Source: Actinomycetospora straminea (GTDB taxonomy: Bacteria > Actinomycetota > Actinomycetes > Mycobacteriales > Pseudonocardiaceae). From it: a stretch of 64,000 bases of DNA. Each line of letters opens with the position of its first letter. Position 1 is the first letter of the stretch. Positions 18,725-53,947 of this stretch are shown here, piece by piece. The translations under genes were made by a program, and so were the position numbers. The notes under the pieces are model-generated. The model did no database searches and was not told where the DNA came from. It was given only the letters and a program-made list of their open reading frames with translations. The stretch is from NCBI RefSeq assembly GCF_028737255.1, contig NZ_JAQZAN010000001.1, positions 186,001-250,000 on the forward strand. Direction: 5' to 3'.

Positions 18725-18726
18725 GG

Positions 18727-19458
18727 TCAGGCCCCGATCGCGAGCACGTCGGCGGTGGCCGGGTCGGTCACGGTGGCCCCGGGCGTCGGGGTGGTGGTGC
18801 TGCCAGTGCTGCCCGTGTCTCCCGTGCTGCCCGTGCCCCCGGGCGTCGCGGTGCCGCCGGTCGTGCCGCCGGTCGTGCCACCCGTGGCGCCGCCCGACGT
18901 GCCCCCGGTCGTGCCACCCGTCGACGTGTCGCCCCCGGTCGTGCCACCGGTGGTCGTGCCGCCCGACGACGACCCGGCCGGGGTGGCCCCGCCCACCGGC
19001 GGGGCCGTCTGCGCGACCGGCCAGAGCTGAGCTGCTGGCGCGGGAGCGGCCGCGGGACGCGGCGCGCTCGCCGCGGCCCGCGGCGTCACCTCCCGCAGCG
19101 GCACCAGCGCGGCGCGCGCGGGCGCGGACACGGTGCGGTCGGCCGCCTCCCGCTCGCGGTGCTGCGCCGGGCGCGAACCGTGGTCCTGCGCGTCCGCCAC
19201 CTCGACCACGGTGTCGGTGGCCTCGATCGGCTCGCCGACCGCGTCGTCGACACCCTCGTCCGCGGTGACCGGGCTCGGCGTCAAGGTGGCGCCGGTCGTG
19301 TGCAGCTGCCCGGCCGTCGTGCCGATCGTGATCCCGAAGGCCGCGAGGTACGCCGTGGCCGCCGAGGCCCCGAGGTAGCCGATCACCGTCACCCCGCGGC
19401 GACGTCGCCCCGTCACGTCCACGAACACCGGACCGCGCGGGCGCTCTCCCTCGCTCAT
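18727..19458 (-). CDS. Membrane-anchored Gly/Thr-rich repeat protein coupled to the deacetylase-GT2 gene
   Basis: About 243 aa from the ATG at 19458, where GGGGGA sits about 6 bases upstream. A basic segment (TGRRRRG) precedes one membrane helix (about 22-45). The rest is extracytoplasmic: an Ala/Pro-rich stretch, then a low-complexity region of GGTTGG/GGTSGG/TGG-type repeats (about 165-230) ending in TPTPGATVTDPATAD. No catalytic domain is seen. Because its stop is 2 bases from the start of the fused deacetylase/glycosyltransferase, it probably acts with it, for instance as a wall-spanning linker or scaffold; this role is inference. Confidence 0.8.
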   Translation of the reverse strand: MSEGERPRGPVFVDVTGRRRRGVTVIGYLGASAATAYLAAFGITIGTTAGQLHTTGATLTPSPVTADEGVDDAVGEPIEATDTVVEVADAQDHGSRPAQHREREAADRTVSAPARAALVPLREVTPRAAASAPRPAAAPAPAAQLWPVAQTAPPVGGATPAGSSSGGTTTGGTTGGDTSTGGTTGGTSGGATGGTTGGTTGGTATPGGTGSTGDTGSTGSTTTPTPGATVTDPATADVLAIGA

Positions 19459-19605
19459 GGCCATCCCCCGAATCACCGCTGAGTCGCCGCGAGACCTCAA
19501 GTGGGTCTCGTCGATCACTCATCGTCAGTGCGGCGACGGAGTGCTACGGAGTAGTAGCCACTCGTTCGGGTGATTCGATCATCGAGGGCCGCGGAGCGGT
19601 GACGT

Positions 19606-22958: not shown

Positions 22959-24494
22959 ATGATCCTGCGTGCGTCGGTCGTCTCTGGCGTGCTGGTCGTC
23001 GCGGGCACCCTGTTCGGCCTCTTCCGGGATTTGACGATCGCTCGTTACTTTGGGGCCTCCGGCGTTACCGATGCGTTCCTGGTCGCGTGGACAGTCCCAG
23101 AGACGGCGCAGCCCCTGCTCGTCCAGGGCGCCATGACGCTCATCATGATCCCGGCGTTCAGCCGCGCGTTGACGACCGAGCGTCCGACCTTGGCCATCCA
23201 GGAAGTCGTCGATGCGACGTTCCCTCGCATCCTCGCGGCGCTCATGCTCGTGTCCGGTCTTCTAGTGGTCCTCGCGCCGTGGCTGGTCGACCTGCTCGCG
23301 CCGGGACTGCAGTACCCCGATGTGGCGGTGCGGTGCTTCCGCATCGTCGCTGTCACGGTGCTCATCATCGGTGTCGCCGGCTACCTCACCGCAGCATTGC
23401 GGGCAAGTCAGGTCTTTGGCGCCCCCGCCGCCGTGAGCCTGGCGTTCAATGCCGGGGTCGTGGCCCTGATGGTCGGCTTCCACGACAGCCTCGGCGTCGA
23501 GAGCGCGGCCTACGGTCTCGTGCTCGGGTGCATCTTGATGGTCCTCGTGCAGGTGCCGAACGCGGTATCGCGAGTCCCTCGGCCACGCTCATGGTCACGG
23601 TCGACCACGTTGGTCTCGATGGGCACGTTCATCCCCGTCGCTACCTACACGCTCACAAGACAAGCGCAGGTGTTTGTCGAGCGCTTCTTCGGGTCCTACC
23701 TTGCGCCAGGGACGCTCTCCCAGCTCAACTACGCGCAGAAGGTCGGCCAGATGCCGACGAACATCACCCTCCTCATTGCCATCGTCACCTTCCCGCTCCT
23801 CGCGCGCGCCTCGGCGTCCGGCGACCAGGCGGCAGTCCGGGCCCGCCTGTCCGCCGATGTGCGGCTCATCCTGGGCCTGACCCTCCTGGGCGCGCTCTTC
23901 CTCCTCGTCGTGGCCCCAGAAGTTGTCCAGGCCCTTCTCCAGCGAGGGGAGTTCACTGCGCAGGACACGGCGGCGACGGCAGCCATCCTGCGCTTGTACG
24001 TCCTGGGGTTGGCCGGTCAGGTCCTAGTCGACATCTTCTCGCGAGCGTTCTTCAGCCGCTCCGGCCCTACCTGGTACCCAGCACTCGCGATGACAGTCGG
24101 ATTGGTGGCCACCGCAATCTTGTCCGGTGTGGCGGTCCTGGTCAGCTCGGCTCCCCTCATCGCCGCCGCGAACGCGGTCGGCATCTCCGTTTGCGCGATC
24201 CTGCTCCTGCGCGGCGCAGGCCTGCAGGCGCGGGAGCGTCCACTGGCCCGCGTCGCCCGCTTCACCGGTCAGGCCGGTCCACCGCTCGGCGTGGCGGCCG
24301 CGGCGGCCGTGCTGTCGGTGGCCTGGTCCGCGACCCTCCACCCGGCCGTGCGCGCCGTGGTCGTCGGGACGGCCATGCTGTTCGCCTTCACCGCCGTCGT
24401 CCTGGTCCAATGGCGTTTCTCGCCGATCGGCTCCATCCTTCCGCGCTCTCGACGCGGTCAGGAATCACACTTGTCCATCAATACCGGGCCCTGA
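22959..24494 (+). CDS. MurJ/MviN-like lipid-linked saccharide flippase (module A)
   Basis: 511 aa, about 13-14 membrane helices, in the MOP superfamily. Typical MurJ-like stretches are GLFRDLTIARYFGASGVTDAF (shown in part), SQLNYAQKVGQMPTNI near 255 and EVVQALLQRGEFTAQDTAAT near 318. The protein should flip an undecaprenyl-linked repeat unit across the membrane. The setting next to an ATP-grasp enzyme and opposite sugar transferases points to exopolysaccharide rather than lipid II. ATG start with AAAGG upstream. Its codon use is somewhat less GC-saturated than the flanking chromosomal genes. Confidence 0.88.
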   Translation: MILRASVVSGVLVVAGTLFGLFRDLTIARYFGASGVTDAFLVAWTVPETAQPLLVQGAMTLIMIPAFSRALTTERPTLAIQEVVDATFPRILAALMLVSGLLVVLAPWLVDLLAPGLQYPDVAVRCFRIVAVTVLIIGVAGYLTAALRASQVFGAPAAVSLAFNAGVVALMVGFHDSLGVESAAYGLVLGCILMVLVQVPNAVSRVPRPRSWSRSTTLVSMGTFIPVATYTLTRQAQVFVERFFGSYLAPGTLSQLNYAQKVGQMPTNITLLIAIVTFPLLARASASGDQAAVRARLSADVRLILGLTLLGALFLLVVAPEVVQALLQRGEFTAQDTAATAAILRLYVLGLAGQVLVDIFSRAFFSRSGPTWYPALAMTVGLVATAILSGVAVLVSSAPLIAAANAVGISVCAILLLRGAGLQARERPLARVARFTGQAGPPLGVAAAAAVLSVAWSATLHPAVRAVVVGTAMLFAFTAVVLVQWRFSPIGSILPRSRRGQESHLSINTGP

Positions 24495-24575: not shown

Positions 24576-25826
24576 GTGGTGTTGAAGCTCGACCACAACG
24601 TCATGCACCACGGCGGCCTCGGCGTCATCCGCACCCTGGGGCGCCACGGCGTGCCGGTCTATAGCGTCCACGAACACCGGTGGGCACCCGCGGCGCGTTC
24701 GAGGTTCATCAATGGCCGGATTCTCTGGAACCCGAGCGCGGATCACGTTGGTGAGCTGCTCGCGGGGCTCGAGCGGCTGTCGGACATCATCGGTCGTGAG
24801 GCGGTCCTGCTGCCGACGGACGACGCGGGCGCCGTCTTCCTCGCCGAGCACGGCGATGCGCTACGGCAGCGCTTCCGCTTCCCGGCACCTCCTCGGAGCC
24901 TGCCCCGGAGCTTGGCGGACAAGCACTCCCTTCTCGGTCTCTGTGCCGCGCACAACGTTCCGGCGCCGCGTTCGGTCACCGCGATGACCACCCGGGAGGT
25001 GGCGGACTTCGTGGACCTCGTGGGGTTCCCGTTGTTGGTGAAGAAGGTAAAGCCTTGGGTCGTGAACGGGTCGGGACCCGCCCTGAGTGCTTCCGTCGCC
25101 CGCTCTCGTCCGGAGCTCGATGACCTCCTCGCCGACGTCGTGGGCGAGGGTGAGATCCTCCTCCAGGAATACATCCCGCACGCTCCGGAGCACGACTGGG
25201 GCGTGGCGGCCTACTTCGACGAGTCCTCGCGTGGAGTACCGGTGTTCACCGGGATCAAGGAGAGGTCGTACCCCAGTGATGCGGGCCAGACCACGCTGGG
25301 GAGGGCGCGCAGCAACCCTGATCTTGTGGACCTCGTCCGGCGATTCCTCTCGGCCGTCGGCTACCGCGGCATCGTGGACATGGACTTCCGCGAGGACCCG
25401 CGCGACGGCCAGTACAAGCTCCTCGACGTCAACCCCCGGATCGGCGCTCAGTTCCGGCTCGGCCGCGACGCCGCCGGTCTAGACGTCGCGCTTGCGCTCC
25501 ACCTGGACCTCACCGGACGGAAGGTCGTCGAGCGCCCGCAGGACGTCGACCGTAGGCTGCTCGTCGAGAGCTATGATCTGGTGCCCGCGGTCAAGGGCTT
25601 CCGCGCTCGGAGCCTGAGCTATGGAGACTGGTGGCATTCGGTCAGGCAACGTGGAGAATTGGCGTGGTTCGCCGCCGACGACCTCGCCCCATTCGGCCTT
25701 ATGTGTCTGCGAATGGTGAGGCGCGTGGCGCGGTCCCGCCACCCACGCAGACCTGTCTCTGCGCAGGCTTCGCAGCTCGTGTTCGAGAGCGGCCGGAGGT
25801 CGGACCGGCACGCGGGTGTAGGGTGA
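24576..25826 (+). CDS. ATP-grasp ligase in polysaccharide module A
   Basis: 416 aa. The N-terminal pre-ATP-grasp part (VLKLDHNVMHHGGLGVIRTLG in part) resembles carboxylate-amine ligases of the D-aspartate ligase type. The ATP-grasp core shows PLLVKKVKPWV (nucleotide Lys, near 150), EILLQEYIP near 192, and a metal-binding block DMDF...LLDVNPRIG near 268-290. The usual Glu before NPR is Asp here. GTG start; an ATG is absent nearby. Its TGA overlaps the start of the GH26 lipoprotein. It may attach an amino acid or other amine to a polymer carboxylate, by analogy with the family; this is inference. A related enzyme lies at 44,249-45,499. Confidence 0.85.
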   Translation: MVLKLDHNVMHHGGLGVIRTLGRHGVPVYSVHEHRWAPAARSRFINGRILWNPSADHVGELLAGLERLSDIIGREAVLLPTDDAGAVFLAEHGDALRQRFRFPAPPRSLPRSLADKHSLLGLCAAHNVPAPRSVTAMTTREVADFVDLVGFPLLVKKVKPWVVNGSGPALSASVARSRPELDDLLADVVGEGEILLQEYIPHAPEHDWGVAAYFDESSRGVPVFTGIKERSYPSDAGQTTLGRARSNPDLVDLVRRFLSAVGYRGIVDMDFREDPRDGQYKLLDVNPRIGAQFRLGRDAAGLDVALALHLDLTGRKVVERPQDVDRRLLVESYDLVPAVKGFRARSLSYGDWWHSVRQRGELAWFAADDLAPFGLMCLRMVRRVARSRHPRRPVSAQASQLVFESGRRSDRHAGVG

Positions 25827-26785
25827 TGCCGCGCCTGCAGTTTGCGTTCATCGCCGCAATGGTCATCATGGTCATCCTCTCGACCGGGTGTGCATACGCC
25901 GACCCCGGCGCGGAAGCGCGTGTGCCCTTCGGTGCCTTCCTCGGCTCGGATGCGGAGGGAGTCGAGGCGTTCGACGGCTACGACCGCTGGTTGGGAGAGG
26001 ACGCTGAACAACCGACGGTCGGTCACACCTACTTGCCGGGCCACCAGTGGTCCGACATAGAGGACCCGGAGCTGTACGTCGGCCCCTGGGCGACGTGGGC
26101 TCGCCAGGAGGCCTCGCGGCAGCTGGTGGTCAACGTTCCCCTCCTCGTCCCGAACGAGCCTCCGCTAGAGGCCGGCGAGGTCGAGGACCTCCTCGAGCGG
26201 GGCGTACAGGGGGAGTTCGACCAGAGCTTCACTCGATTGGGGGAGAGGCTGGTCGATCTCGGTGCGGAGCGCGCCATCCTGGTGCTCGGCTGGGAGATGA
26301 ACGGATCGACCTATACGCACAGGTGCTCGCCCGAGCCAGAAGCGTGGAAGAAGTACTGGCGATCGGTCGTTGCCGCCCTGCGGTCCGTGCCCGGGCAGGA
26401 GTTCCGCTTCGACTACACGGCGAGCCGTGGTACGGACTCGATCTCGTGGACGCGGTGCTATCCCGGTGATGATGTCGTCGACATCATCGGCATGGACTCG
26501 TACGACCAGGAACCGGGATCGTCGTTCACCGACTACAGGGATCAGCCGGACGGGTTGGCCGACCACGCAGCTTTCGCTCGTGAACGCGGGAAGCCGGTCT
26601 CCTTCCCGGAGTGGGGACTCTCCGAGGAGCACGGCGACAGGCCCGAGTTCGTGCGCGCGATGCTCGAGTGGATGGAAGACCAGCCGACGGTCTACCAAAC
26701 CATCACGGACTATTGTCCGCACGGTGTCTACCAGTGCGATGCGCACCCTGATTCAGCTGCCACGTACCTCGAACACTATCGCTAG
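25826..26785 (+). CDS. GH26-like glycoside hydrolase lipoprotein
   Basis: 319 aa. The lipobox ILSTGC ends the signal peptide (Cys at about residue 22). The TIM-barrel shows FGAFLGSD near 35, a strand-4 LVLGWEMNGSTYTH whose Glu matches the GH26 acid/base, and KPVSFPEWGLS whose Glu matches the nucleophile. GH26 enzymes cut beta-mannans or mixed glucans; those in exopolysaccharide loci are thought to trim or release polymer. The ATG overlaps the upstream stop (TGATG), so it is coupled to the ATP-grasp gene. It converges on the Wzz-like gene after about 36 bases. Confidence 0.85.
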   Translation: MPRLQFAFIAAMVIMVILSTGCAYADPGAEARVPFGAFLGSDAEGVEAFDGYDRWLGEDAEQPTVGHTYLPGHQWSDIEDPELYVGPWATWARQEASRQLVVNVPLLVPNEPPLEAGEVEDLLERGVQGEFDQSFTRLGERLVDLGAERAILVLGWEMNGSTYTHRCSPEPEAWKKYWRSVVAALRSVPGQEFRFDYTASRGTDSISWTRCYPGDDVVDIIGMDSYDQEPGSSFTDYRDQPDGLADHAAFARERGKPVSFPEWGLSEEHGDRPEFVRAMLEWMEDQPTVYQTITDYCPHGVYQCDAHPDSAATYLEHYR

Positions 26786-26821: not shown

Positions 26822-27673
26822 TCACCGTCGTCGATCCCGACGGGGTTGAGGCGTCGGTGTCCCCGGGCCGAGCGGCGGCTTCCGGGCCTCCGCCGTTACC
26901 GGGATGTCCCGGACCGTCGTCTCGTCGGCCGCGTGCGACCGCTGACGTGCTTCGACGTGAAACGTGGACGCCGCCTCGGCGCGTTGATCGTGCTGATGGT
27001 CGGCACGGCCGTCGCTGACCGCGCCGGCGGGGTCACCGGCGGGCTCGTCGGCCGTTCGCCGCCTGGTCGATCCACTCGTTAGCGTGCGCAGAGCGGCCGG
27101 TAGGGGGTACCTGTCTGCGCCTGCGGCCAGCGCGAGGATGCCCAGCAACAACCCCGCCGCGGCGCCCACGGCGACGCAGGCCACCACTCCGGCCGAGGCC
27201 GGATCGGTCGGCGCCGAGGCTCGGCCGAAGATGGACAGCCGAACGCCGGTATCAGCGATCTTCGAGTTCCCAAAGTCCACGAACGCCCCGGCCACGGCAT
27301 TCGCCTCCCGCGCCGACTGCCCCGCGTCACGCGCCGTGCTGATGATCTCGATCAACGGGGCGTCGGGCGATGTCGCAGCCGTTACGCGACGCTGGAGATC
27401 GGCGGCGGAGCTTCCGGATGCCCGCGACGCAACGTCGATCACCTGCGGGTCCGTGGCAATCCTGCCGTAGGCCTGTGTGAATCCGGTGGCCAGCTCCGTG
27501 TTCTGGGCGAGGATCGGCGTGACGGCCACATAACTCGACGCCTGGAAGAGTCGAGGTACGGAGGCGTAGTAAACAGCCCCGGCCGCCGCTCCGATGATGA
27601 ACATGATCAGGGCGATGCTGACTCGACCGAGCAGGCTGGCCCTGCCGACACGGGCTTCTCCGGCGGGCGACAT
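26822..27673 (-). CDS. Wzz/YveK-like chain-length or capsule co-polymerase protein (module A)
   Basis: About 283 aa. A first TM near residues 17-37, an extracytoplasmic loop with SVPRLFQASSYVAVTPI typical of Wzz-type proteins, and a second TM near 165-187 (GVVACVAVGAAAGLLLGILAL). The cytoplasmic tail is hydrophilic and lacks a Walker A, so no tyrosine-kinase domain is fused. The start may be this ATG or the one at 27688. It follows the broken glycosyltransferase on the same strand (TGA-GG-ATG) and is the last gene of the - strand operon. It probably sets polymer length with the Wzy-like protein. Confidence 0.8.
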   Translation of the reverse strand: MSPAGEARVGRASLLGRVSIALIMFIIGAAAGAVYYASVPRLFQASSYVAVTPILAQNTELATGFTQAYGRIATDPQVIDVASRASGSSAADLQRRVTAATSPDAPLIEIISTARDAGQSAREANAVAGAFVDFGNSKIADTGVRLSIFGRASAPTDPASAGVVACVAVGAAAGLLLGILALAAGADRYPLPAALRTLTSGSTRRRTADEPAGDPAGAVSDGRADHQHDQRAEAASTFHVEARQRSHAADETTVRDIPVTAEARKPPLGPGTPTPQPRRDRRR

Positions 27674-27675
27674 CC

Positions 27676-28467
27676 TCACCTGCTCCATTCTTCGTCGGGG
27701 GAGTATAGGCGCTCGATCTCGCTCACGATACGCTGGATCTCGCACACGTCGACGATCGGCCAGGGAGCGCGGGCTGGGGCGGCGAGGAATTTACGAATCG
27801 CGAGGACGCCGTCGACGGCCTCGACGAAGCATTCGACACTGTGCTCTGTCTTGCGTGCACACGGTCCGAAGGCATCGGCTCTCTCCTCGAGGGCCGGGCA
27901 TGGGGCGTAGACGACCGGGAGGCCGAAGGCGAGTAGTTCAATGATCGCGAGCCCGTAGGTCTCCTCGGGGCTCGGTGACGCCAGGATGTCGGCGGCAGGG
28001 AGCAGCCCCGGCACGTCGGAGACCTCGCCGGTGAAGTGCACCCTGTCGGCGATCCCGAACTCTCGCGCCGCACGGCGGAGCTCACCCTCGGCGGAACCGG
28101 AGCCGATCAACAGGGCCTCAGTGGTCGGGCGTTTCGCGATCGCCTCGAGCAGGACATCGAATCGCTGTCCCGACACGAGACGCCCGCACCCGGCGACGAG
28201 GGGAGTGGTGAACAGGAGGGTGTGGGCGCCGTCGTACCGAACTGATCGGATCAGCCTCACGTGGCACACCCGAGCGCGTGGAGATCGTGGTTCGACCGCA
28301 TCGCGATGTCGATGACGGGGGTCCCGCGTGCGGCGATGGCTTTGGCGACTGGTCCCGCGTTGATCAGCATCGCGGCCTCGCACAGCACGTGTGTGTGCGC
28401 ACAGCAACCGGAGTTCCTGCTCGGCGTCTACTGCCGCGAAGCCCGTGATCACGCGGATGACCTTCGC
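27676..28467 (-). pseudogene. Broken GT4 glycosyltransferase, degenerate copy of 31219-32328
   Basis: The first part matches the intact enzyme (VITG.AA...EQ.LRLLCAH), but the start codon equivalent is GCG (28467-28465) instead of GTG. After LLCAHT the frame shifts; the neighbouring frame then continues the match (AIAARGTPVIDIAMRSNHD) and runs into stops. The frame returns at RYDGAHTLLF, and about 110 codons present in the intact copy are missing before TPLVAGCGRLVSG. From there the C-terminal GT-B half (FTGEVSDVPGLLPAADILASPSPEETYGLAIIE) is open to the stop. It cannot make a working transferase. The flanking deacetylase copy upstream is intact. Confidence 0.88.
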
Positions 28468-29192
28468 CAGGTCGTCCCCCTCGCGCGCCAGTACTCGAAG
28501 TGCAGGCGCTTGCCGAGCAACCGCAGCGGCCCGTCCACGTCGCCGATGTATGTCCTTGGTACGGCGAAGGTTCCATTGGCGCCCGGTTGATGCTTTACAG
28601 CACTGGCGTGCTGGTAACCCGCCGCCCGCACCGCGTTGACCTCACGGCTCGTGACGTCGCCGTAGGGGTAGGCGAACCCGGTCACCCTGGACCGGATCAC
28701 GTCCTCGAGGATTGCGCGGCTCTCCGTCACTTCGCGATGCACCTCGTCTGGCTCGAGCGCGGGCAGGTGCGCGTGCGAGAGGGTGTGCGAGCCGACCTCC
28801 ATCCCGCTCAGCTCCACCGCCCGCGCTTGGTCCGCGTTCATGATCCTTTTGCGCGGGGCGTCCCGATCCCACTCATTGCTCAGAGCGAGCCGTCCTGCGA
28901 CGACGTACACCGTGGCGGTGAACCCGAACCGCTGGAGGATCGGCACGGCGTTCGTGACGAAGTCGCTGTATCCGTCGTCGAAGGTCAACCCAACTAGTCG
29001 TGCGCGAGAGCGGGACGACAACAGGTCCCGCATGCTCACGCCGCGCAGCCCGGCTCGCGCGAGAGCGCGCATCTGCTCTTCGAACCGGCCGGGGTTCACC
29101 GTGATCTTGTGCGGATCGCTGACGTACTCGTCCACCGAGTGGTACATCCACACCCACGGTGCTCGCGGCGCAGACCTCGGGCATTGCTTCAT
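28449..29192 (-). CDS. Polysaccharide deacetylase (NodB/CE4), intact copy
   Basis: 247 aa. Metal and catalytic motifs are complete: TFDDG at 70-74, HTLSH at 136-140 and AYPYG near 172. There is no obvious signal peptide, so it may act on a cytoplasmic or lipid-linked sugar, or use non-classical placement. The ATG overlaps the upstream stop of the ligase (ATGA). Compared with its duplicate at 32,325 the stop is lost by a TGA to CGA change and the protein runs on for a few residues (WRRSSA). CE4 enzymes remove N-acetyl or O-acetyl groups from sugars. Confidence 0.87.
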   Translation of the reverse strand: MKQCPRSAPRAPWVWMYHSVDEYVSDPHKITVNPGRFEEQMRALARAGLRGVSMRDLLSSRSRARLVGLTFDDGYSDFVTNAVPILQRFGFTATVYVVAGRLALSNEWDRDAPRKRIMNADQARAVELSGMEVGSHTLSHAHLPALEPDEVHREVTESRAILEDVIRSRVTGFAYPYGDVTSREVNAVRAAGYQHASAVKHQPGANGTFAVPRTYIGDVDGPLRLLGKRLHFEYWRARGTTWRRSSA

Positions 29193-30754
29193 CGAGTCGC
29201 CCTCCACCGGGGTTCGGCCTGACGGTGCCCTGCTTGATCGACGCTCTTGGTCCCGAAGGAGTGCTTGACGGTGAGGCCGACGACGACGGCGATGACGGCG
29301 CTGTTCGGTCCTCCGATGTCCCCGTACACGAACGTGACGAGTACGAAGACCGACATACCAAAGGTTACCGACTGCATGATCGATGGCCGAACGAGCGTTC
29401 CCCGGATCCTGCGCCACAGCAGGACGATCGGTGGACCGACCAGGAGGGCGCCCACGGCGAGGGCGCCGATCACGCCCTGCTCAGCGAGGACGAGCAAGTA
29501 CATGTTGTGGGGACTGAGCAGCTGCTGACGATGGAAGCCCTGCCCCACCTGCTCCGTGTCGCTCGACGACGACAAGCTCAACGGGGCCTCGGTGTCCCGA
29601 TACTCAGGGAAGCTCCGTATCCCCACCCCGCTCACGGGCTGGCGCATCCACATGTCGAGCGCGGCGCCCCACAAAGAATACCGGTCGATGACGGACTGGT
29701 CGGCACGTTCCGACGTCGAGGCGGTGATCGAGACCAAGCGCGCACCGACTCCGCCCTCGTCTTGGTCGAGCGTGCCGGGGGTCGCGGTGAGGACGGCGAT
29801 TGCCGCGACGCACACAGCCGTCACGGCGCTGGTCAGGAGGACGCGAGGCCGGGCGAGCGCCGTGACGGCGACGGCGGCCACAATCACGCCGATCAGTGAC
29901 CCGCGGCTGAACGAGACCAGGAGCGGCGCGACGAGTCCGAGAGCGGTGACGAGCGCGATCCAACGCACCCAAGGACGGTCGGTACGGAGCGCGACGCCAA
30001 GTGCGGCGACCAGCCCGAGGCCCACCACCGTCGACATGCTGATCACGTTGGACGCGCCGAAGGTGCCGGTGGCTCGGACGGGGTTGCCGTCGTACGACGC
30101 TCCCGTCCCGGTGAGGTACTGGTTCAGGCCGATCGCCCCCTGGAAGACGGCCATCCCGACGAAGGCGCCCGTGATGACCCGGTCGTCGACGCAGTCCCGG
30201 TGGACGATCAGTACCGCGGCGGGGACGAGCACGAATAGCTGCATCCATCGGAGGTAGCCGATGAAGCTCTCGCTTGTGTCGGTCGATGCCAGCACCGACG
30301 CGCTCGTCGCGATCGCGACGGCAGCCAGCAGCATCGCCGGGCGAACACCGAGCGCTGGTCGGCCGGACCGGAACGCGAGGACGGCCGCGAGAATGACGAG
30401 CACGACGGTGAGGCCGTCACCGAACGTCGCTCCGAAGGCGTCCTCGCCGGCCACGCTGACCTCGTAGCTCGCTCCGAAGATAACGGCCGCGACCACGAGA
30501 CTCGGCCGGCGGAACTGGGTCGCGCGGACGAGGGCGCGCCGGGACGACGTCGGTGTGCGAGCACTCACTTCCGACGCCGCGATGTCTTCCTTTGCGACCC
30601 GGAGGTCCGTGGTCACGGACTCGGCAGTGTTCGAGGAGCAGGCCAGGGAGCCGGGGGGCTCCCCACGGTGGCGGAGGTTCACGAGGGCACGGCCCGCGGC
30701 GGAGCTGCTCACCTGCTTCGGGGACCGCTTGCCCGTCGCACGCCACATGTCCAT
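29189..30754 (-). CDS. O-antigen ligase/Wzy-like polymerase (module A)
   Basis: About 521 aa; the start is uncertain because the open frame continues to 31,093 without homology. About 11-12 membrane helices are visible, with the large periplasmic loop typical of the Wzy_C/O-antigen ligase family between about 365 and 435 (YSLWGAALDMWMRQPVSGVGIRSF, in part; then LLSPHNMYLLVLAEQGVIG). The His in SPHNMYL matches the conserved ligase His. It polymerises or transfers lipid-linked repeat units on the outer face of the membrane. It overlaps the deacetylase by ATGA. In the duplicated copy of this unit (32.3-33.9 kb) the gene is absent. Confidence 0.82.
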   Translation of the reverse strand: MDMWRATGKRSPKQVSSSAAGRALVNLRHRGEPPGSLACSSNTAESVTTDLRVAKEDIAASEVSARTPTSSRRALVRATQFRRPSLVVAAVIFGASYEVSVAGEDAFGATFGDGLTVVLVILAAVLAFRSGRPALGVRPAMLLAAVAIATSASVLASTDTSESFIGYLRWMQLFVLVPAAVLIVHRDCVDDRVITGAFVGMAVFQGAIGLNQYLTGTGASYDGNPVRATGTFGASNVISMSTVVGLGLVAALGVALRTDRPWVRWIALVTALGLVAPLLVSFSRGSLIGVIVAAVAVTALARPRVLLTSAVTAVCVAAIAVLTATPGTLDQDEGGVGARLVSITASTSERADQSVIDRYSLWGAALDMWMRQPVSGVGIRSFPEYRDTEAPLSLSSSSDTEQVGQGFHRQQLLSPHNMYLLVLAEQGVIGALAVGALLVGPPIVLLWRRIRGTLVRPSIMQSVTFGMSVFVLVTFVYGDIGGPNSAVIAVVVGLTVKHSFGTKSVDQAGHRQAEPRWRATR

Positions 30755-30768
30755 GGCGGGCCGTCCGT

Positions 30769-30990
30769 TCACCATCGGGGCCGACCCGAGGTGCCCAGCA
30801 ACCCGTTGTAGACGGCCAGCATGTAATCCCCCCAGGCATCGAGCCCGTGGTGCGCGAGGACGTGGGTGCGCGCTGCCGCACCCTCCCGTTCGACCAGCGC
30901 CGGGTCGCGCAGCCGAGCGACCATTGCAGCGGGGAGCGACCGTACCCCTGGGTCCTCGGCAGCTCCGAGGTCGGTCCCGTCGGTCGACTC
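30769..30990 (-). pseudogene. C-terminal fragment of a GT4 glycosyltransferase, copy of the end of 32838-33944
   Basis: The frame reads AAMVARLRDPALVEREGAAA, then AHHGLDAWGDYMLAVYNGLLG, nearly identical to the C-terminus of the GT at 32,838-33,944. The N-terminal four fifths are missing: upstream of about 30,990 the similarity stops. The fragment ends just before the Wzy-like gene, as the intact GT ends just before the deacetylase remnant, so it marks the edge of the duplicated unit. Confidence 0.82.
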
Positions 30991-31218
30991 GACCTGGAGC
31001 CCCGGCTGCGCCTCGCCGTGCTCGCGCATGCTCCCCCAAGCAGTCACGCGATCGACGTAGGTTGTCGGTCGCCCATTGCGATGAAAACACCAACTAGGCC
31101 GCCGCGACTAGTCCTTCTGCGGCACCCGACTAGGGCTCCTTGGCGACGCACCAGGTCGACGACTCGACCAGGCGGGGGCCTACCCGCCGTGGGCCGCCTC
31201 GTGCGGTGTGCGGCATCT

Positions 31219-32328
31219 TCACCTGTTCGCTTCCCCGGTGAGCGAGTAGAGGCTCTCGATCTGGCTCACGAGACGTCGGATGTCGTACACGTCAACGACC
31301 GGCCATGCCGTGCGAGAAGACGCTGTGGCGAGGGGTCCGCGAACGGCGAGGACGTCGTCGATGGCCTCGGCGAAGCGCTCGGCCGTCGGTTCGGTCCTAC
31401 GGGCCCACGGCCCGAGGGCATCGGCCCTCTCCTCGAGGGCCGGACACGCGGCGTAGACGACCGGGAGGCCGCAGGCAAGTGCTTCGATGATGGCCAGCCC
31501 GTAGGTCTCCTCGGCGCTGGGCGACGCCAGAACGTCCGCCGCCGACAGCAAGCCTGGTACGTCGGAGACCTCGCCGGTGAAGTGCACCCTGTCGGCGATC
31601 CCGAGTTCTCCCGCCGCACGGCGCAGCTCACCCTCGGCGGGACCGGACCCGATCAACAGCGCCTCGTGGGTCCGGTACTTCGCGACCGCCTCGAGCAGGA
31701 CTTCAAAGCGCTTTCCCGATACGAGGCGCCCGCACCCCGCGACGAGCGGGGTCGCGGGGCCGATCCCGAGCTCGGCGCGCACCTCGGCCCGACGACGCGC
31801 CGAGAACCGCAGCTCAGCCGAGTCGATGCCGTTGGGGACGACCGTCACCTTCGAGGCCGGGATGCCCCAGCTGAGCATGATGTCGGCAGTGTGGCGCGAC
31901 ACTGCAATCGTCCGGTCACCGAGGCTTTCGCCGAACCTGTAGAGGGTGCGGATCCCGCGTCGAGACACGGGTCGTCCCTCAATGTGGCTCGCGCCCAGCG
32001 AGTGCTCCGTGGCGACGACACGGGGAACGCGGGCGATGCGCGCAGCCAGCCGACCGAAGAGCCCCGCCCGGAACAGGTGGGTGTGGACGCAGTCGTACCG
32101 TCCTGACCGCATGAGCCGCACCAGGCGGCCGAGCGCGCGGATATCGCGGTTCGAGCGCATGCCGATATCGACGACGGGCGTTCCGCCGGCGGCGATCGCT
32201 TCGGCCACCAGACCAGGGTTGGTCAGCACCGCGACCTCGCACTGCACCCCGGAGTGCGCGCACAGCAACCGGAGTTGCTGCTCGGCGCCCCCGGCCGCAA
32301 GGCCTGTGATCACGTGGAGGACCTTCAC
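31219..32328 (-). CDS. GT4-family glycosyltransferase, intact copy
   Basis: 369 aa GT-B fold enzyme. N-terminal MKVLHVITGLAAGGAEQ is typical of GT4 enzymes in lipopolysaccharide and capsule loci. The C-terminal nucleotide-sugar site shows LVAGCGRLVSGKRFEVLLEA (in part), LIGSGPAEGEL and the E-x7-E block in SAEETYGLAIIEAL near 275-290. The start GTG overlaps the stop of the deacetylase remnant (GTGA). It should transfer a sugar to the lipid-linked acceptor in the cytoplasm. A degenerate copy lies at 27,676-28,467. Confidence 0.9.
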   Translation of the reverse strand: MKVLHVITGLAAGGAEQQLRLLCAHSGVQCEVAVLTNPGLVAEAIAAGGTPVVDIGMRSNRDIRALGRLVRLMRSGRYDCVHTHLFRAGLFGRLAARIARVPRVVATEHSLGASHIEGRPVSRRGIRTLYRFGESLGDRTIAVSRHTADIMLSWGIPASKVTVVPNGIDSAELRFSARRRAEVRAELGIGPATPLVAGCGRLVSGKRFEVLLEAVAKYRTHEALLIGSGPAEGELRRAAGELGIADRVHFTGEVSDVPGLLSAADVLASPSAEETYGLAIIEALACGLPVVYAACPALEERADALGPWARRTEPTAERFAEAIDDVLAVRGPLATASSRTAWPVVDVYDIRRLVSQIESLYSLTGEANR

Positions 32329-32790
32329 CGGGTGGTCCCCCGAGCGCGCCTGTACTCGACCCGCGCGCCCTTCGCGAGAGGGCGGAGCGACCCGTCCGCG
32401 TCGCTAACGCCCGTCCTCTGGACGGCGAAGGTCCCCCTGCTGCCTGGCTGTTGCTCGACCGCGCTCGCGTGCACGTCGCCGGCTACCCGGGCCGGGTCGA
32501 CCTCCCGAGGCGTGACCTCGCGGTAGGGGTAAGCGAAATCGGTCACCCGGAAGCGGATCGTGTCCTCGAGGATCGCCCGGCTCTCGATCACGTCGCGGTG
32601 TATCTGGTCGGCGTCCAGCGCCGATAGGTGTGTGTGCGACACGGTTTGCGAACCGACCGCCGTCCCGCCGCGCTCCACCGTCCGCATCTCCTCCGCGCTC
32701 ATAGTGGCTTTCTCAGGTGCGTCCAAACTCCTGCCATCTGCTCACACTCCGTCCAGTAGCGACGTAGACCTTGGCCACTCGCGAGTCGAG
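32325..32790 (-). pseudogene. Truncated polysaccharide deacetylase, degenerate copy of 28449-29192
   Basis: The open 3' part (from about 32,726) matches the C-terminal 60 percent of the intact deacetylase: VGSQTVSHTHLSALDAD, SRAILEDTIRFRVT and FAYPYREVTPREV. Just upstream, in another frame, VAKVYVATGR matches VYVVAGR of the intact copy, so a frameshift separates the two pieces. The N-terminal part with the TFDDG metal motif is gone, and the second motif reads QTVSH with Gln in place of the first His. It cannot be an active CE4 enzyme. Its TGA is still the overlapping start of the intact GT4. Confidence 0.85.
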
Positions 32791-32837
32791 CGTCAGCTTG
32801 TCAAGGCCCAGCCGTCCACCCACCGTCTGGGCTCAGG

Positions 32838-33944
32838 TCAGAGCCGGGCGCCCGGCAACCCGTCGTAGGCGGCCAACATGTGACCTCCCCAGGTCTCGAG
32901 GCCGTGATGCGCAACGACGTGGGCGCGGGCCGCCGCACCCTCCCGTTCGGCCAGCGCCGGGTCGCGCAGCCGAGCGACCACGGCGGCCGCGAGCGAGTCG
33001 GGGTCCTCGCGCGCCACGATCACCCCGCAGCCCTCGGGCACCGTCTCGCGCGCGCCGGCGACGTCGGTCATGACCACACTGCGGGCACCCGCACTGGCCT
33101 CCAGCGGGACGAGCGCCATCCCCTCCCATCGGGATGGCACCACCACCACGTCCGCCGCGGCGTACCAGTCCGCGGGACCCGTGCTGCTGCCCACGAAGTC
33201 GACGCCATCACCGGCGTCGGCAGCCAGCCGATCGCGCCAAGGCCCCTGGCCCACCAGGGCGAGCGAGGCACCGGACAGCTCGCGGCGCACAGAACGCCAA
33301 GCGCGTAGGAGGACGTCCTGGCCTTTCTGCTCGCAGAGCCGACCCACGCAGACCGCCAGCGACCGGTCAGCCGGCAGGCCCAGTCGGCGCCGGGCCTCCG
33401 AACGGTCTCGGGGTGCAAAACGATCCGTGTCAACGGAGTTCGGGACGACGCGCGCCCGGTCACCGAGGCCCACGCCGGCCTCTTCGGCCTGCTCGCGCTC
33501 CGACTCGCTGACGCACACGACGCGGTGCGTCCATCGCAGCGCGGTGCGCTCCCAGGCGACGGTGGCCCGACTGAGGACGTCGGGCACGGCCAGGAAGGAC
33601 CAGGCGTGCGGCTGGAAGACGGTGGGCACGGCCCCGCGGACCGCGAGGCGGCCCACCAGCCCCGCCTTCGAGCTGTGCAGGTGCACCAGGTCGTGGTCGA
33701 GATCTCGCAGAGCACGGCGCAGCCGCCTGACCTCGCCCGGCACGGCCAGGTTCGGGTTGCGGTCGGCAGACCACGGCACGTGCTGGGCACCGGCCTCCAC
33801 CGCCTCGGCGGCGAGCCACCCGTCGGTCGGCGACACGACGACGACACGGCATCCGCGCGCCACCTGGTGTCGGACGAGCGCGACGATGCACCGCGGCACT
33901 CCCTCGGTTGTCGGCTGCGAGACGTGCACAATGCGCGCATTCAC
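32838..33944 (-). CDS. GT4-family glycosyltransferase
   Basis: 368 aa. VNARIVHVSQPTTEGVPRC at the N-terminus and HLHSSKAGLVGRL near 83 match GT4 enzymes. The C-terminal half shows AVCVGRLCEQKGQDVLLRAW (in part), ALVGQGPWRDRL and SRWEGMALVPLEAS with the E-x7-E pair. The GTG start was chosen because AGGA lies about 7 bases upstream and the N-terminal strand begins right there; the frame stays open further without similarity. It is the first glycosyltransferase after the priming enzyme at 34,091, so it may add the second sugar. Confidence 0.88.
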   Translation of the reverse strand: MNARIVHVSQPTTEGVPRCIVALVRHQVARGCRVVVVSPTDGWLAAEAVEAGAQHVPWSADRNPNLAVPGEVRRLRRALRDLDHDLVHLHSSKAGLVGRLAVRGAVPTVFQPHAWSFLAVPDVLSRATVAWERTALRWTHRVVCVSESEREQAEEAGVGLGDRARVVPNSVDTDRFAPRDRSEARRRLGLPADRSLAVCVGRLCEQKGQDVLLRAWRSVRRELSGASLALVGQGPWRDRLAADAGDGVDFVGSSTGPADWYAAADVVVVPSRWEGMALVPLEASAGARSVVMTDVAGARETVPEGCGVIVAREDPDSLAAAVVARLRDPALAEREGAAARAHVVAHHGLETWGGHMLAAYDGLPGARL

Positions 33945-34090: not shown

Positions 34091-35557
34091 TCAGCCACCT
34101 TGCCGCCGGACCACCTGGCCGACCGTCATCAAAATGATCTTCAGATCGAGCCAGGGAGACCAATTCTCAATATAGTAGTTGTCGTACCGAGCCCGCTCTT
34201 CGATCGAGGTGTCCCCCCGGAGGCCGTGGACCTGGGCCCACCCCGTAAGCCCTGCGGGCACGCGGTGGCGGGTGACGTAGCGGGGGATGTAGGACGAGAA
34301 CTTCTCGACGAAGTGGGGGCGTTCCGGGCGCGGACCGACGAGGCTCATGTCGCCCCGGAGGATGTTCCAGAGCTGCGGCAGCTCGTCGAGGGACGACGCC
34401 CGAAGTAGCCTGCCGAGTCGCCCGAGCCGGTCGTCGTGCTTGATGTTCCAGTTGGTCTGAGACTCAGCCTCGTCAACCGGCTTGAGCGACCGGAACTTGA
34501 GGACCTCGAACGGACGGTTGTCGATGCCGACGCGTTGCTGGCGGAAGATGATCCCGGGACCGCCTTCCAGCCGGACCGCGAGCGCACAGATGGCGAGAAT
34601 GGGCGAGAGCAGGACGAGGGCGACGGCTGCGACGGCGGCGTCCACGAGCCTCTTCACGGCCCACCAGGGACTGCGGAACGTGGCCCGGCGCAGCCGGACG
34701 AGCGGGATCCCCTGGACCTCGTCCGTGTCGCGGTGGGTGTTGTGGAGTTCGAAGAGGCGGGGGACGACGAACACCTCGACGTCGAGGCGGTCGCAGGTCC
34801 GGAGCATGTCGACCAGCGCGTTCTCTCGTGTGCCCCCGAAGGCCACGATCACGTCTCGGATGAGGTGCTCGCGGATCAGCTGGCCCAGTCGGTCGTAGTC
34901 ACCGAGCAGGGGCAACGGTCTGAGGTGCATCTTGTCCAGACCGCAGGCGGCATCGACGAAGCCGACCGGTTCGAGCCCGTAGCGGCGATCATCGAGCAGG
35001 GCGTGGGTGATGCGAGTGCCGATCACACCAGCGCCGAGCACCATCGTCCGATGCCGGACCCAGCCGCGCCTCCGGGCGCCGCGAACGATGGCGTAGGCGA
35101 TCGAACGCACGACGATGACGACGAGGAGGAGGACGGTGACGTGCTCCACCTGCTCCAGCGGCGGATCGATGCCGGGCACGAAGGTGGAGAGCGAAACTTT
35201 CAACGCAAGCCCTGCCACCACCGCCGCGATCAGGTATGGAAGATCGTCCAGCAGGGAGAGTTTGAGCCGCGAGCGGTACAACCCTGCCATCGACAAGGTG
35301 ATCAAGGTGATCAGGAGGACGAGCAGGTGGGTCGGCGACGTTGGGAGTGTGATCGCGGACGCTAAAACGAACGCCACGAGGTCGCCTACTACGAGATAGG
35401 GCCCAACGCCAGCCCGTAGCCACCAGGCTTCGGGATTGCGCCACCGGTTCTCGGCCGTCCATAGCGGGGCATCGGTTGCCGAGTCGTCGCTGGCTCGGCG
35501 GACGTCGTCCGCCGGATCGAGCTCGAACTCTGGCTTCGTCTGGTGATCCTCCGACAC
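34091..35557 (-). CDS. Polyisoprenyl-phosphate sugar transferase, long WbaP/CpsE type
   Basis: 488 aa priming enzyme that transfers sugar-1-phosphate to undecaprenyl phosphate. Four N-terminal membrane helices (about 50-145), a Rossmann-like CoA-binding domain (GAGVIGTRITHALLDDRRYGLEPVGFVD, in part), and the C-terminal PGT domain. The last has [46 protein letters not shown] with the catalytic Asp-Glu, [16 protein letters not shown] and the end YDNYYIENWS. It starts the - strand operon of module A. A paralogue follows at 36,156-37,703, and a broken one lies at 58,445. Confidence 0.93.
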   Translation of the reverse strand: MSEDHQTKPEFELDPADDVRRASDDSATDAPLWTAENRWRNPEAWWLRAGVGPYLVVGDLVAFVLASAITLPTSPTHLLVLLITLITLSMAGLYRSRLKLSLLDDLPYLIAAVVAGLALKVSLSTFVPGIDPPLEQVEHVTVLLLVVIVVRSIAYAIVRGARRRGWVRHRTMVLGAGVIGTRITHALLDDRRYGLEPVGFVDAACGLDKMHLRPLPLLGDYDRLGQLIREHLIRDVIVAFGGTRENALVDMLRTCDRLDVEVFVVPRLFELHNTHRDTDEVQGIPLVRLRRATFRSPWWAVKRLVDAAVAAVALVLLSPILAICALAVRLEGGPGIIFRQQRVGIDNRPFEVLKFRSLKPVDEAESQTNWNIKHDDRLGRLGRLLRASSLDELPQLWNILRGDMSLVGPRPERPHFVEKFSSYIPRYVTRHRVPAGLTGWAQVHGLRGDTSIEERARYDNYYIENWSPWLDLKIILMTVGQVVRRQGG

Positions 35558-36155: not shown

Positions 36156-37703
36156 CTACCTGCCTCGGGCGCAGAAGACCTCACCGAAGGTACGGAGGAG
36201 GACCTTCGCGTCGAGCCAGAGCGACCAGTTCTCGATGTAGTAGTTGTCGAACCGGGCGCGGTCGGTGATCGGGGTGTCGCCGCGCAGGCCGCTGACCTGA
36301 GCCAGGCCGGTGAGGCCGGCGCGAACGCGGTGACGGTGGTCGTAGCGGTCGATCTCGACCGAGAACTTGCTGACGAAGTGGGGCCGCTCGGGGCGTGGAC
36401 CGACGAGTGTCATGTCGCCCTTGAGGATGCTCCACAGCTGAGGGAGCTCGTCGAGAGAGGAGCGTCGGAGAATCTTGCCGACCGGCCCGACGCGGCTGTC
36501 GGTGGCGATGTTCCACTGCGTCGCCGACTCGGCAGAAGTGGCGGGCTTCATCGAGCGGAACTTCAGGCAGGAGAAGAGCCGGCCGTCACGGCCGACCCGC
36601 TCCTGACGGAAGATCACCCCGGAGCCACCCTCCCAGCACACAGCGACCGCGCAAGCCACCATCACCGGCGCTAGCAGGAGGAGCAGGGCGCCGCTGACCA
36701 CGACGTCGAAAGCGCGCTTCACGGCCCAGGAAGGCCCCTCGAGGCGCGGGGTGCGGATGCGCATCACGGGTACGGAGCCGATGTGGTCGACCATGCCGGC
36801 TTGGGTATGGAACTGCGGCAGCCGCGGTATGACCAGCAAGTCGCAGTCGAGGCAGTCAGGGCGGCGCACGACGTCGAGCAGCTCAGCCTCGGAGACGTCA
36901 CCGTCAGCCATGAGAATCACATCGGCGCCGGATGCGGCCACGGCGAGGTCCAGGTCGTCGACACGACCAAGGCGCGGGAGCACCGACTTCGCGGGGCAGA
37001 CCAGACCGTCGTCGACGAAACCGACGGGCGCGAGACCGTACTGCGGGTAGCGCTGCAGCAGCGTCGCCATCTCAGCGGCTCGGGCGCCGCCGCCGATGAT
37101 GATCGTGGGGTGAGCGACGACCCGCCGCTTGCGCGCGGCGAGGATGATCTGCGTCGTCATCATGCGGCCGGCGATGACGAGCCCGACGGTGCCCAGCATC
37201 ATCGCCAGGAACGGCGCGACCTCCTGTTGAGTGTTCCACAGGGCGAAGAGCGTGCCGACGATCGCGGCCGCGGTCAGCAGGCGCCCGACGAGGGCGGGCA
37301 GCTCGTCGAGCACGCTGAGGTGCAGCCGGGCGCGGAAGCGGCCGGCACCGTTGAGGACGACCATCGCGACCGCGGCCATCAGCAGGATCGCCTTGGTATT
37401 AAGCGGCGCCCAGAGCAGGGGCAGCAGCAGCATCACGGCGTCGACTGGCGGCACCACCATCCATGCGGCGATGCCACGCGCTGACCTGATGCCAGCGAGA
37501 GGACGGGCGACGGGGAGGGGATTCGAGCGGATCTCCAGTTCCGAGCGCTGCTCGGGGACCAGAGTGAGCGGACGCTTTCGTGTGACCTCCCGCTGGTCAC
37601 GCTCCGTACCAGAGGCGAACCGACCGAGCTCCAACTCGATCGACTGAGTTACGTCGACGCCGCTGCTCACTTCGAAGTCCCCCGTTGTCCGTGGACGGCG
37701 CAA
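36156..37703 (-). CDS. Polyisoprenyl-phosphate sugar transferase, second long copy
   Basis: 515 aa. N-terminal soluble extension, four membrane helices (about 78-190), a Rossmann-like middle domain (IIIGGGARAAEMATLLQRYP in part, GLAPVGFVDDG), and a C-terminal PGT domain: FRQERVGRDGRLFSCLKFRS (in part), [13 protein letters not shown] with the catalytic pair, [35 protein letters not shown]. The closest relative in the window is the broken gene at 58,445-59,800, with which it shares the same C-terminal ending; it is more distant from 34,091-35,557. Having two primers may mean two starting sugars. Its exact start is uncertain. Confidence 0.9.
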   Translation of the reverse strand: MRRPRTTGDFEVSSGVDVTQSIELELGRFASGTERDQREVTRKRPLTLVPEQRSELEIRSNPLPVARPLAGIRSARGIAAWMVVPPVDAVMLLLPLLWAPLNTKAILLMAAVAMVVLNGAGRFRARLHLSVLDELPALVGRLLTAAAIVGTLFALWNTQQEVAPFLAMMLGTVGLVIAGRMMTTQIILAARKRRVVAHPTIIIGGGARAAEMATLLQRYPQYGLAPVGFVDDGLVCPAKSVLPRLGRVDDLDLAVAASGADVILMADGDVSEAELLDVVRRPDCLDCDLLVIPRLPQFHTQAGMVDHIGSVPVMRIRTPRLEGPSWAVKRAFDVVVSGALLLLLAPVMVACAVAVCWEGGSGVIFRQERVGRDGRLFSCLKFRSMKPATSAESATQWNIATDSRVGPVGKILRRSSLDELPQLWSILKGDMTLVGPRPERPHFVSKFSVEIDRYDHRHRVRAGLTGLAQVSGLRGDTPITDRARFDNYYIENWSLWLDAKVLLRTFGEVFCARGR

Positions 37704-42744: not shown

Positions 42745-43431
42745 GTGCGACAGACGAAGTGGGAACAGATCGCCGAGACCCGCTGGGGTCGGTACCTGTC
42801 CGCGCGGGAGAAGGACGCCATCGTCACCGCGAGCCGCCTGGCCGGCCCTCCGGGTGATGCCCTCGACATCGGGGCTGAGGGCGGACGCTGGGCTCGTCTC
42901 CTCCGCGACCTCGGGTGGTCGGTGACGTGTACGGATGTCGACGAGGACGCGGTCGCCCTCTGCGCCGCCCGGCTTCCCGATGTTCGTTGCCTCAAGGTGT
43001 CCCCGGATCGCGAGGAGCTCCCGATCGGGGACCGCGCCGTCGGACTCGTCATCTGTATCGAGGTGATCGCGGTCGTGTCGACGGCCTGGTTCGCACCGGA
43101 GGTCGCTCGCGTCCTCGCACCAGGAGGCTCGTGCGTCACCGTCGTGTGGAACTGCCGGTCGGTCCGTGGCTGGGCGGCGAACCTGCTGGAGCGGTACCGG
43201 CACGGACGGCCGCACCCCTATTACACCGACGACTACGCGTCCTGGCGGCAGCGCCTCGTCGATCACGACTTCGACATCGTCAGCGAGCGGGGTATGGCGT
43301 GGTTTCCGTTCCGTCGCAGCAGCGATTCCCCCGCGATCCCGTGGGCGACCAAGCTTGAGGACGTGCTGCGGCTGCCACGCCTCGTGTCCTGGAGTCCTTG
43401 GGTCCTGGTGGTCGCCCGTCGCCGCGGATGA
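42745..43431 (+). CDS. Class I SAM-dependent methyltransferase
   Basis: 228 aa. Motif I ALDIGAEGGRWARLL is at about 39-53, CTDVDEDAV follows strand 2 near 62-70, and LVICIEVIAVVSTAWFAPEV with VARVLAPGGSCVTVVW give motifs II and III in the UbiE/type-11 layout. GTG start with GGGGAGAG upstream. The gene lies alone between the permuted papain-fold gene and the convergent metallophosphoesterase. The substrate is unknown. Confidence 0.85.
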   Translation: MRQTKWEQIAETRWGRYLSAREKDAIVTASRLAGPPGDALDIGAEGGRWARLLRDLGWSVTCTDVDEDAVALCAARLPDVRCLKVSPDREELPIGDRAVGLVICIEVIAVVSTAWFAPEVARVLAPGGSCVTVVWNCRSVRGWAANLLERYRHGRPHPYYTDDYASWRQRLVDHDFDIVSERGMAWFPFRRSSDSPAIPWATKLEDVLRLPRLVSWSPWVLVVARRRG

Positions 43432-43441
43432 CGACGAGCGC

Positions 43442-44245
43442 TCAGGGATTCGAGGCTGCCCGCCGCAGATCGCGCCACGCCGATCGGGAGCGGCGTCTGA
43501 TCATCGGGATCACACCCGCCCGTTGGTGGACCGCATCGGACCGCAGGCCCCGCTCCCGGAGGGCCGTCCGGCAGGCGGCGTGATCGTACGGCAGCGCCAG
43601 AGGAAGGACCTCGCGGCGATCCGAGTCGTAGAGCATGCACCGGGCCCTCGGCGTCGACTCCCGGTCCCGCGACTGCCCCACCGCGCCCGGGTTCAGGAGG
43701 ACGGGACCCCCATCCGGGAGCCGCAGGGTCCGCCCGGCCGCCAAGGACGAAAGCTCTCCTGTCGCACTACACACCATCTGCTGATGGGTGTGCCCCAGCA
43801 CGAGCACCTCGGTCCCCGGCTTCTCGTCGGCTACCCGCCGCAGCTGCTCCTTCGCTTGGCCCGCGCTCCGTACATAAGGCAGAGGTCCCTCGAGGGACGC
43901 GTGGGTCATGAACAGATCGCCCAGGGTCACCTCGACGGGTAGCCGCCCGAGGTGGGTGCGGGCGTCGGCCCGGATTTCCGCACGGGTCCACCGCGTGCTC
44001 TCGCGGGCCATGCGGCCGCACCGCTCCTCGGTGAGCACGTCGAGAGCCATCAGCTCGTGGTTTCCCGTCACCGTGACTGCCTCGAGCTCAGCGACGATCT
44101 CGACGCACTCATTCGGGTGCGGGCCCCAGCCGACGATGTCGCCCACGCACAGCCATTGATCGACGCCCTCGGCGCGAAGGGCATCGATCGCCGAACGCAG
44201 AGCGAAGCGGTTGGCGTGGATGTCGGAGAGGATCCCGTAGCGCAC
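43442..44245 (-). CDS. Metallophosphoesterase (YfcE/MJ0936-like)
   Basis: 267 aa. Calcineurin-like motifs are complete: LSDIHANRFA at 6-15, CVGDIVGWGPHPNECV (near 33-48), VTGNHELM near 59, THASLEGPLPY, and VLGHTHQQM near 147. The fold binds two metals and cleaves phosphoesters. A C-terminal 60-residue Arg-rich extension has no motif. The GTG start comes 3 bases after the ATP-grasp stop, so the pair is one transcription unit. The link with an ATP-grasp ligase suggests small-molecule phosphate chemistry, which is inference. Confidence 0.88.
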   Translation of the reverse strand: MRYGILSDIHANRFALRSAIDALRAEGVDQWLCVGDIVGWGPHPNECVEIVAELEAVTVTGNHELMALDVLTEERCGRMARESTRWTRAEIRADARTHLGRLPVEVTLGDLFMTHASLEGPLPYVRSAGQAKEQLRRVADEKPGTEVLVLGHTHQQMVCSATGELSSLAAGRTLRLPDGGPVLLNPGAVGQSRDRESTPRARCMLYDSDRREVLPLALPYDHAACRTALRERGLRSDAVHQRAGVIPMIRRRSRSAWRDLRRAASNP

Positions 44246-44248
44246 GAG

Positions 44249-53811: not shown

Positions 53812-53886
53812 CACGACCCGCGCATCTCCAGCTACCGAGGACGCGGCGAGCGGTGGGCATCGCGCCTCCGCGGTGCCGCGGTGTCG

Positions 53887-53936: not shown

Positions 53937-53947
53937 ACGTTCCCGGG

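Follow-up and report, generated by a model that had tools for sequence, protein, structure and literature searches.

The stretch of DNA analysed here (64,000 nt from Actinomycetospora straminea, referred to as the window, with all positions given within it) contains an exopolysaccharide locus in which glycosyltransferase and deacetylase sequences occur twice on the minus strand, one member of each pair being damaged. This raises the question whether the two sets descend from one duplicated unit, and by which losses the present arrangement arose. Nucleotide homology, phylogenetic trees and substitution rates all support a tandem duplication followed by reciprocal gene loss, which we regard as very probable.

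Gene content of the locus

Genes were assigned with Pfam and NCBIfam profiles and, for the damaged members, with BLASTN and alignment. The following features were distinguished; copy 1 and copy 2 denote the two sets.

22959–24494, plus strand: MJ, MurJ-like protein, candidate flippase (PF03023, 5e-55)
24576–25826, plus strand: AG, ATP-grasp-like protein (weak PF02786 match; genes 35–53% identical lie near relatives' loci)
25631–26785, plus strand: GH, glycosyl hydrolase family 26-like, start of the open reading frame uncertain, overlaps AG (PF02156, 2.9e-07)
26822–27673, minus strand: WZ, chain-length (Wzz-like) protein, single copy (TIGR01006, 1.5e-04, below cut-off; no Pfam match)
27676–28467, minus strand: G2', broken second glycosyltransferase, copy 2 (BLASTN and alignment)
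28449–29192, minus strand: DE, intact NodB-type polysaccharide deacetylase, copy 2, overlaps the end of WY (PF01522, 2.7e-27)
29189–30598, minus strand: WY, Wzy-like polymerase, single copy, start codon uncertain (PF04932 (Wzy_C), 5.8e-17)
30775–30959, minus strand: G1', stub of the 3' end of G1, head of copy 2 (BLASTN 83% to 30939; global alignment to about 30959)
30960–31139, no strand: junction between the copies (similarity to G1, WZ and Pb not above that of shuffles)
31140–31216, minus strand: stub of the start of the chain-length gene, after G2, copy 1 (BLASTN to 31204; about 13 nt firm, the remainder weak)
31219–32328, minus strand: G2, intact GT4-type glycosyltransferase, copy 1 (PF13439, 4.5e-27)
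32325–32775, minus strand: DE', deacetylase remnant, copy 1 (BLASTN 75% against 28210–28841; partial PF01522, 5.2e-07)
32838–33944, minus strand: G1, intact GT4-type glycosyltransferase, copy 1 (PF13692, 3.6e-30; PF13439, 6.9e-28)
34091–35557, minus strand: Pb, exopolysaccharide glycosylphosphotransferase upstream of G1 (PF02397, 9.9e-66; TIGR03025 above cut-off)
36156–37703, minus strand: Pa, second exopolysaccharide glycosylphosphotransferase (PF02397, 4e-64; TIGR03025 above cut-off)

Initiating glycosylphosphotransferases, glycosyltransferases and a Wzy-like polymerase were all present by these profiles. For export and chain-length control, the MurJ-like protein at 22959–24494 and WZ were found; the TIGR01006 match of WZ is weak and below cut-off, and a similar gene occupies the same place in relatives. 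GH and AG are members of the conserved locus; in many relatives, WY and DE have the MurJ-like gene between them. An earlier note, made from the sequence alone, had labelled 32838–33944 as GT-C and 31219–32328 as GT-B. The first label was dropped, as G1 matched GT4/group 1 Pfam models only; the second gene is indeed an intact glycosyltransferase, and its Pfam assignment is likewise to GT4/group 1 models, which we take to be of GT-B fold.

The host genome comprises 6.29 Mb in 56 contigs. G+C content was 67–72% in the 22–38 kb part of the window, compared with 72–78% in 1–22 kb and 76–77% in 38–42 kb. Further genes of the surface-polymer type were seen at 42745–56832 (methyltransferase, phosphoesterase, ATP-grasp, GFO/IDH/MocA oxidoreductase, DegT aminotransferase, a second MurJ-like protein at 49106–50710, GNAT and FkbM domains and a GT4 glycosyltransferase), and an open frame of 1028 amino acids on the minus strand (16436–19522) fuses NodB-type deacetylase and GT2 glycosyltransferase domains. 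A third exopolysaccharide glycosylphosphotransferase gene on the minus strand (58448–59636) is 72% identical in DNA to Pa (36162–37335 against 58451–59622) and is broken, matching Pa in three frames with shifts near 58753 and 58709; it is thus a second duplicated and decayed polymer gene in the window.

Repeat structure

Self-BLASTN of the 26–38.5 kb part of the window returned three direct repeats in the same order, with which a repeat search agreed. These were the 3' end of G1 (30775–30939 against 32833–32996; 83.0% over 165 nt, E 2e-43), the deacetylase (28210–28841 against 32071–32702; 75.2% over 634 nt, E 4e-122) and G2 (27661–28206 against 31204–31752; 80.1% over 549 nt, E 3e-142). Read along the minus strand, copy 1 consists of G1, DE', G2 and the short stub of the chain-length gene, and copy 2 of the G1 stub, WY, DE, the broken G2' and WZ; a second polymerase gene was not seen in this self-comparison. 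Amino acid identity between the copies was 73–76% for G2 and G2' and 61% for DE and DE'. One duplicated unit had been proposed from matching ends and gene order, and the three collinear repeats, at 75–83% nucleotide identity, bear this out. The expectation that self-alignment would show nucleotide similarity was likewise correct, and that of two blocks of 1.5–2 kb was not, since the tracts measured 165, 634 and 549 nt.

An assembly artefact was set aside, as the copies differ by 17–25% and sit on one contig. Gene conversion was also set aside: a single run of 46 nt is identical in G2 and G2' amid surroundings of about 80% identity (within about 31514–31604 of copy 1), and its length was equalled in 32 of 5000 shuffles (4730 and 359 of 5000 for the longest runs in DE and G1). 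The run could reflect either a conversion tract or conservation of the coding sequence.

Damage in the two copies

In copy 2, G2' lacks about 318 nt corresponding to 31753–32070 of copy 1, and the alignment contains small indels besides. Its start is altered as well. Copy 1 reads GTGA where the start of G2 overlaps the stop of DE', and copy 2 reads GCGA, with GCG in place of GTG; this difference removes the start of G2' and extends DE by a few codons to its stop at 28449. In copy 1, deacetylase homology of DE' starts near 32775, about 50 nt before the start of the open reading frame at 32726, and includes indels (0 of 500 shuffles equalled the score). Upstream of 32775 no deacetylase homology was found (259 of 500 shuffles equalled the score), so DE' lacks its front half, TFDDG motif included; the part that remains reads SQTVSH where DE reads SHTLSH, with Gln for His. 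The sequence after G1 shows a weak resemblance, equalled in score by 15 of 500 shuffles, to that after the G1 stub, and a single deletion would therefore fit the absence of both the polymerase and the front of DE'.

At the edges of the repeats only short pieces matched. Within the open reading frame of 92 amino acids at 30769–31047, only the part up to 30939 (BLASTN), or at most about 30959, matches G1; further upstream no G1 homology was found, the scores being equalled by 190 and 220 of 500 shuffles. The match following G2 enters the chain-length gene by about 13 nt and is weak beyond 31204 (25 and 4 of 500 shuffles in two overlapping tests).

Three statements of the earlier note agree with these data: copy 1 is without a polymerase and half of the deacetylase, a second polymerase gene not having been seen in the self-comparison, nor DE' homology before about 32775; the second glycosyltransferase of copy 2 is broken, by loss of the start codon, indels and the missing segment of about 318 nt; and one apparently intact version of each gene remains, namely G1 and G2 in copy 1 and WY, DE and WZ in copy 2. 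Annotators should be warned against calling the leftover open frames at 27676–28452, 30769–31047 and 32325–32726 working genes.

Single copies in relatives

Loci of relatives were examined in a set of 75, comprising 12 from one search and 63 (L040–L102) of the 80 from another; the other 17 of these 80 (L103–L119), with a best identity of 35%, were not included. Not all of the 75 are independent, as a genome may have been sampled twice in some cases (L034 and L079 are on contigs of equal length, 49650). At an identity of at least 40%, a second copy was found in 0 of 75 loci with G2, 0 of 68 with DE and 0 of 38 with WY. The same held for a second G1-like copy in 0 of 70 loci with a G1-like gene, a number that includes other GT4 genes because the first G1-like match was accepted at any identity. 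The relatives compared thus carry these genes once. Single-copy loci of Planobispora (L040) and Streptomyces (L056) contain the glycosylphosphotransferase, WY, the MurJ-like gene, DE, G2 and WZ, with G1, GH26 and ATP-grasp genes nearby, as in the window. The window differs from them in its partial repeat, in the position of G1 between Pb and WY, and in its MurJ-like gene, which lies at the far end on the opposite strand.

The nearest relatives of G2 were 51–57% identical in amino acids, and the closest DE relative within the genus reached 55%; among 18 genomes of the genus, nucleotide matches outside the own genome reached 67% at best. When G2 was searched at E ≤ 1e-85, 7 of 390 family genomes matched, the own genome included, and none of the others exceeded 56%. 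A version nearer to either copy was not found in the 18 genus genomes, in the 390 family genomes at this G2 threshold or in a pattern scan of contigs. The copies of the window were sisters in both trees, with SH-aLRT 99 each (35 relatives for G2, 36 for DE), and the duplication therefore looks private among the sampled genomes.

Extent of the duplicated segment

The stubs of G1 and of the chain-length gene face each other, 180–264 nt apart depending on how far the matches are extended, and shuffle-tested alignment detected no further G1 or WZ sequence between them. The junction (30960–31139) gave only a 27-nt match elsewhere in its own genome (E 8e-4). Its assignment to a gene by tblastx was rejected, the result being scattered short matches in many frames that were taken for GC-rich noise. 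Promoter-like and terminator-like sites numbered 0 and 2 (0.4 and 2.4 expected).

Because the G1 stub meets the chain-length-gene stub, the two are favoured as edges of the duplicated segment, and not as remains of a later loss: a duplication that began at the end of G1 and stopped at the start of WZ would yield exactly these stubs without further loss. This is the version of duplication and reciprocal loss to which we lean. One local tandem duplication within a conserved Wzx/Wzy-like exopolysaccharide locus would have copied a segment beginning within the 3' end of G1 and reaching shortly past the start of the chain-length gene, doubling the polymerase, the deacetylase and G2 and leaving both stubs at the new joint. 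In copy 1 the polymerase would then have gone, together with the front half of the deacetylase, as would fit one deletion, and G2 of copy 2 would have been inactivated, with its start codon gone, small indels and about 318 nt missing. Two losses suffice if the polymerase, the deacetylase and G2 are the genes that were doubled in full. Counted against a single event with the stubs as edges were the uneven dS values, as one event should give similar ones, the G+C bias of copy 1 and the p value of 0.06 for the deacetylase asymmetry with 10 outgroups (all given below), as well as the unexplained 180-nt junction.

Gene order in relatives bears on the same point. Loci with both G1 and WY numbered 33 after G1 matches below 42% and G2 matches below 40% identity had been dropped. 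G1 stood before the glycosylphosphotransferase in 23 of these and after WY in 10, mostly directly after the chain-length gene and including one locus of the same genus (L028); in 0 of 33 did it lie between the glycosylphosphotransferase and WY, as it does in the window. This last order in the ancestor is what stubs as edges would need, and its absence from the sampled relatives counts against that version. The ten loci with G1 after WY speak for another history, in which a longer unit holding G1 (and the chain-length gene) in full was copied, and a deletion afterwards took out the greater part of one chain-length gene and of the G1 next to it, so that the same two stubs were left; the tandem duplication itself would then have put G1 between the chain-length gene and WY, as found in the window. 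Such a history, which is that of the earlier note or near to it, requires one more deletion and must explain why an intact G1 lies at the head beside Pb and none after WZ, and the junction yielded no additional sequence of G1 or WZ. We consider it possible, though doubtful. The statement that copy 2 lost most of its GT-C is accordingly not upheld, as the G1 stub adjoins the chain-length-gene stub and may be an edge of the duplicated segment; the gene order of relatives leaves it possible.

Substitution rates and base composition

In the trees, terminal branches were 0.324 for G2' and 0.021 for G2, and 0.551 for DE' and 0.020 for DE. Changes were counted against the majority residue of outgroups, using 10, 30 or all outgroups with a match (75 for G2, 67 for DE, 40 for G1). 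With 30 outgroups, G2' carried 32 changes and G2 7, and DE' 22 and DE 6; with all outgroups the numbers were 30 and 9, and 22 and 3; with 10 outgroups they were 32 and 7, and 20 and 9, the last being the weakest comparison (p 0.06). For 20–30 differences per gene no direction could be assigned. The excess on the broken member was seen in each part (17 against 5 in the C-terminal domain of G2, 15 against 2 in its N part, 22 against 6 in the DE block). At columns conserved to at least 90%, G2' departed at 19 of 71 and G2 at 5 of 71, DE' at 14 of 32 and DE at 6 of 32. The G1 stub showed no directional asymmetry, with 0 changes on the stub and 1–2 on intact G1. These data support a decay that proceeds gene by gene, the broken members evolving faster and lying in opposite copies.

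Pairwise dN/dS was 0.33 for G2, 0.39 for DE and 0.59 for the G1 stub (49 codons), and the first two values imply that G2' and DE' were constrained for part of the time. From the outgroup-based change counts, and under the assumption of equal synonymous change on both branches, the unconstrained share of time was estimated roughly at 0.48 (0.27–0.76) for G2' and 0.53 (0.22–0.99) for DE'. dS was uneven (0.65 for DE, 0.47 for G2 and 0.23 for the G1 stub, which has only 40 synonymous sites); short tracts, saturation or conversion could blur these values.

In each of the three segments G+C was higher in copy 1 (119 against 83 changes over aligned sites, p 0.014; p 0.03, 0.5 and 0.26 by gene), though the deacetylase of this copy is the decaying one. 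This bias leans slightly towards two sources, in which case the copies would be diverged versions from two lineages, joined by recombination with incoming DNA, whose redundant genes then decayed. The divergence of the copies, rather large at 75–83% identity, also speaks for this, and polysaccharide loci exchange often. However, nearly all protein divergence lies on the broken branches, whereas two working lineages should both drift and the intact members have branches of only 0.021 and 0.020; nor was a nearer version found in the 18 genus genomes or, at the threshold used, in the 390 family genomes. An origin from two lineages is thus unlikely. Equally improbable is its corollary that the locus is a chimera, with G1 and G2 of one lineage and the polymerase, deacetylase and chain-length gene of the other, the new combination being fixed by the losses; if it were so, the polymer might be one made by neither parent. 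That chance placed unrelated members of these gene families in matching order, common as GT4 enzymes and deacetylases are in such loci, is refuted by the collinear nucleotide matches (E 2e-43 to 3e-142) and the sister position in both trees, and is given practically no credence.

Predicted pathway

Each enzyme is still represented by one apparently intact version on the same strand, and the pathway is for this reason predicted to work as in single-copy relatives. A glycosylphosphotransferase would prime, the GT4 enzymes extend and a flippase export, after which Wzy would polymerise, the chain-length protein limit and the deacetylase trim. Exactly one intact version per gene is also what would be needed for the pathway to be kept.

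Comparison with known systems

A search of open-licence papers, judged by titles and abstract openings, found no literature on this locus. By gene content it resembles the Wzx/Wzy-type clusters wps-1 to wps-3 of the actinobacterium Actinoplanes missouriensis, for which a flippase, a polymerase and a chain-length protein are predicted, with a polysaccharide deacetylase in wps-3; the sections of that report concerned with these clusters mention no duplication (PMC13390465). Exopolysaccharide operons are described as shaped by duplication and loss in a survey whose relevant passages place all duplicated operons at least 10 kb apart and suggest transfer (PMC7112194). The copies in the window are adjacent, a mild contrast only, since the survey, in those passages, names other polymer types.

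Reciprocal gene loss is best known from whole-genome duplication; work on polyploid yeasts is among the references of PMC3857721. The likeness lies in two copies of a gene set that lose different members, one of each being kept. The finding is real and the process ordinary, an event of a known kind that opens no long-standing question. Its value is that of a small natural case: within a single operon, two genes have each lost the copy that the other kept, and each loss is legible in structure as well as in substitution rates. In contrast to the whole-genome cases, the duplication in the window is tandem and partial, covering a few kb within one bacterial operon, with two losses.
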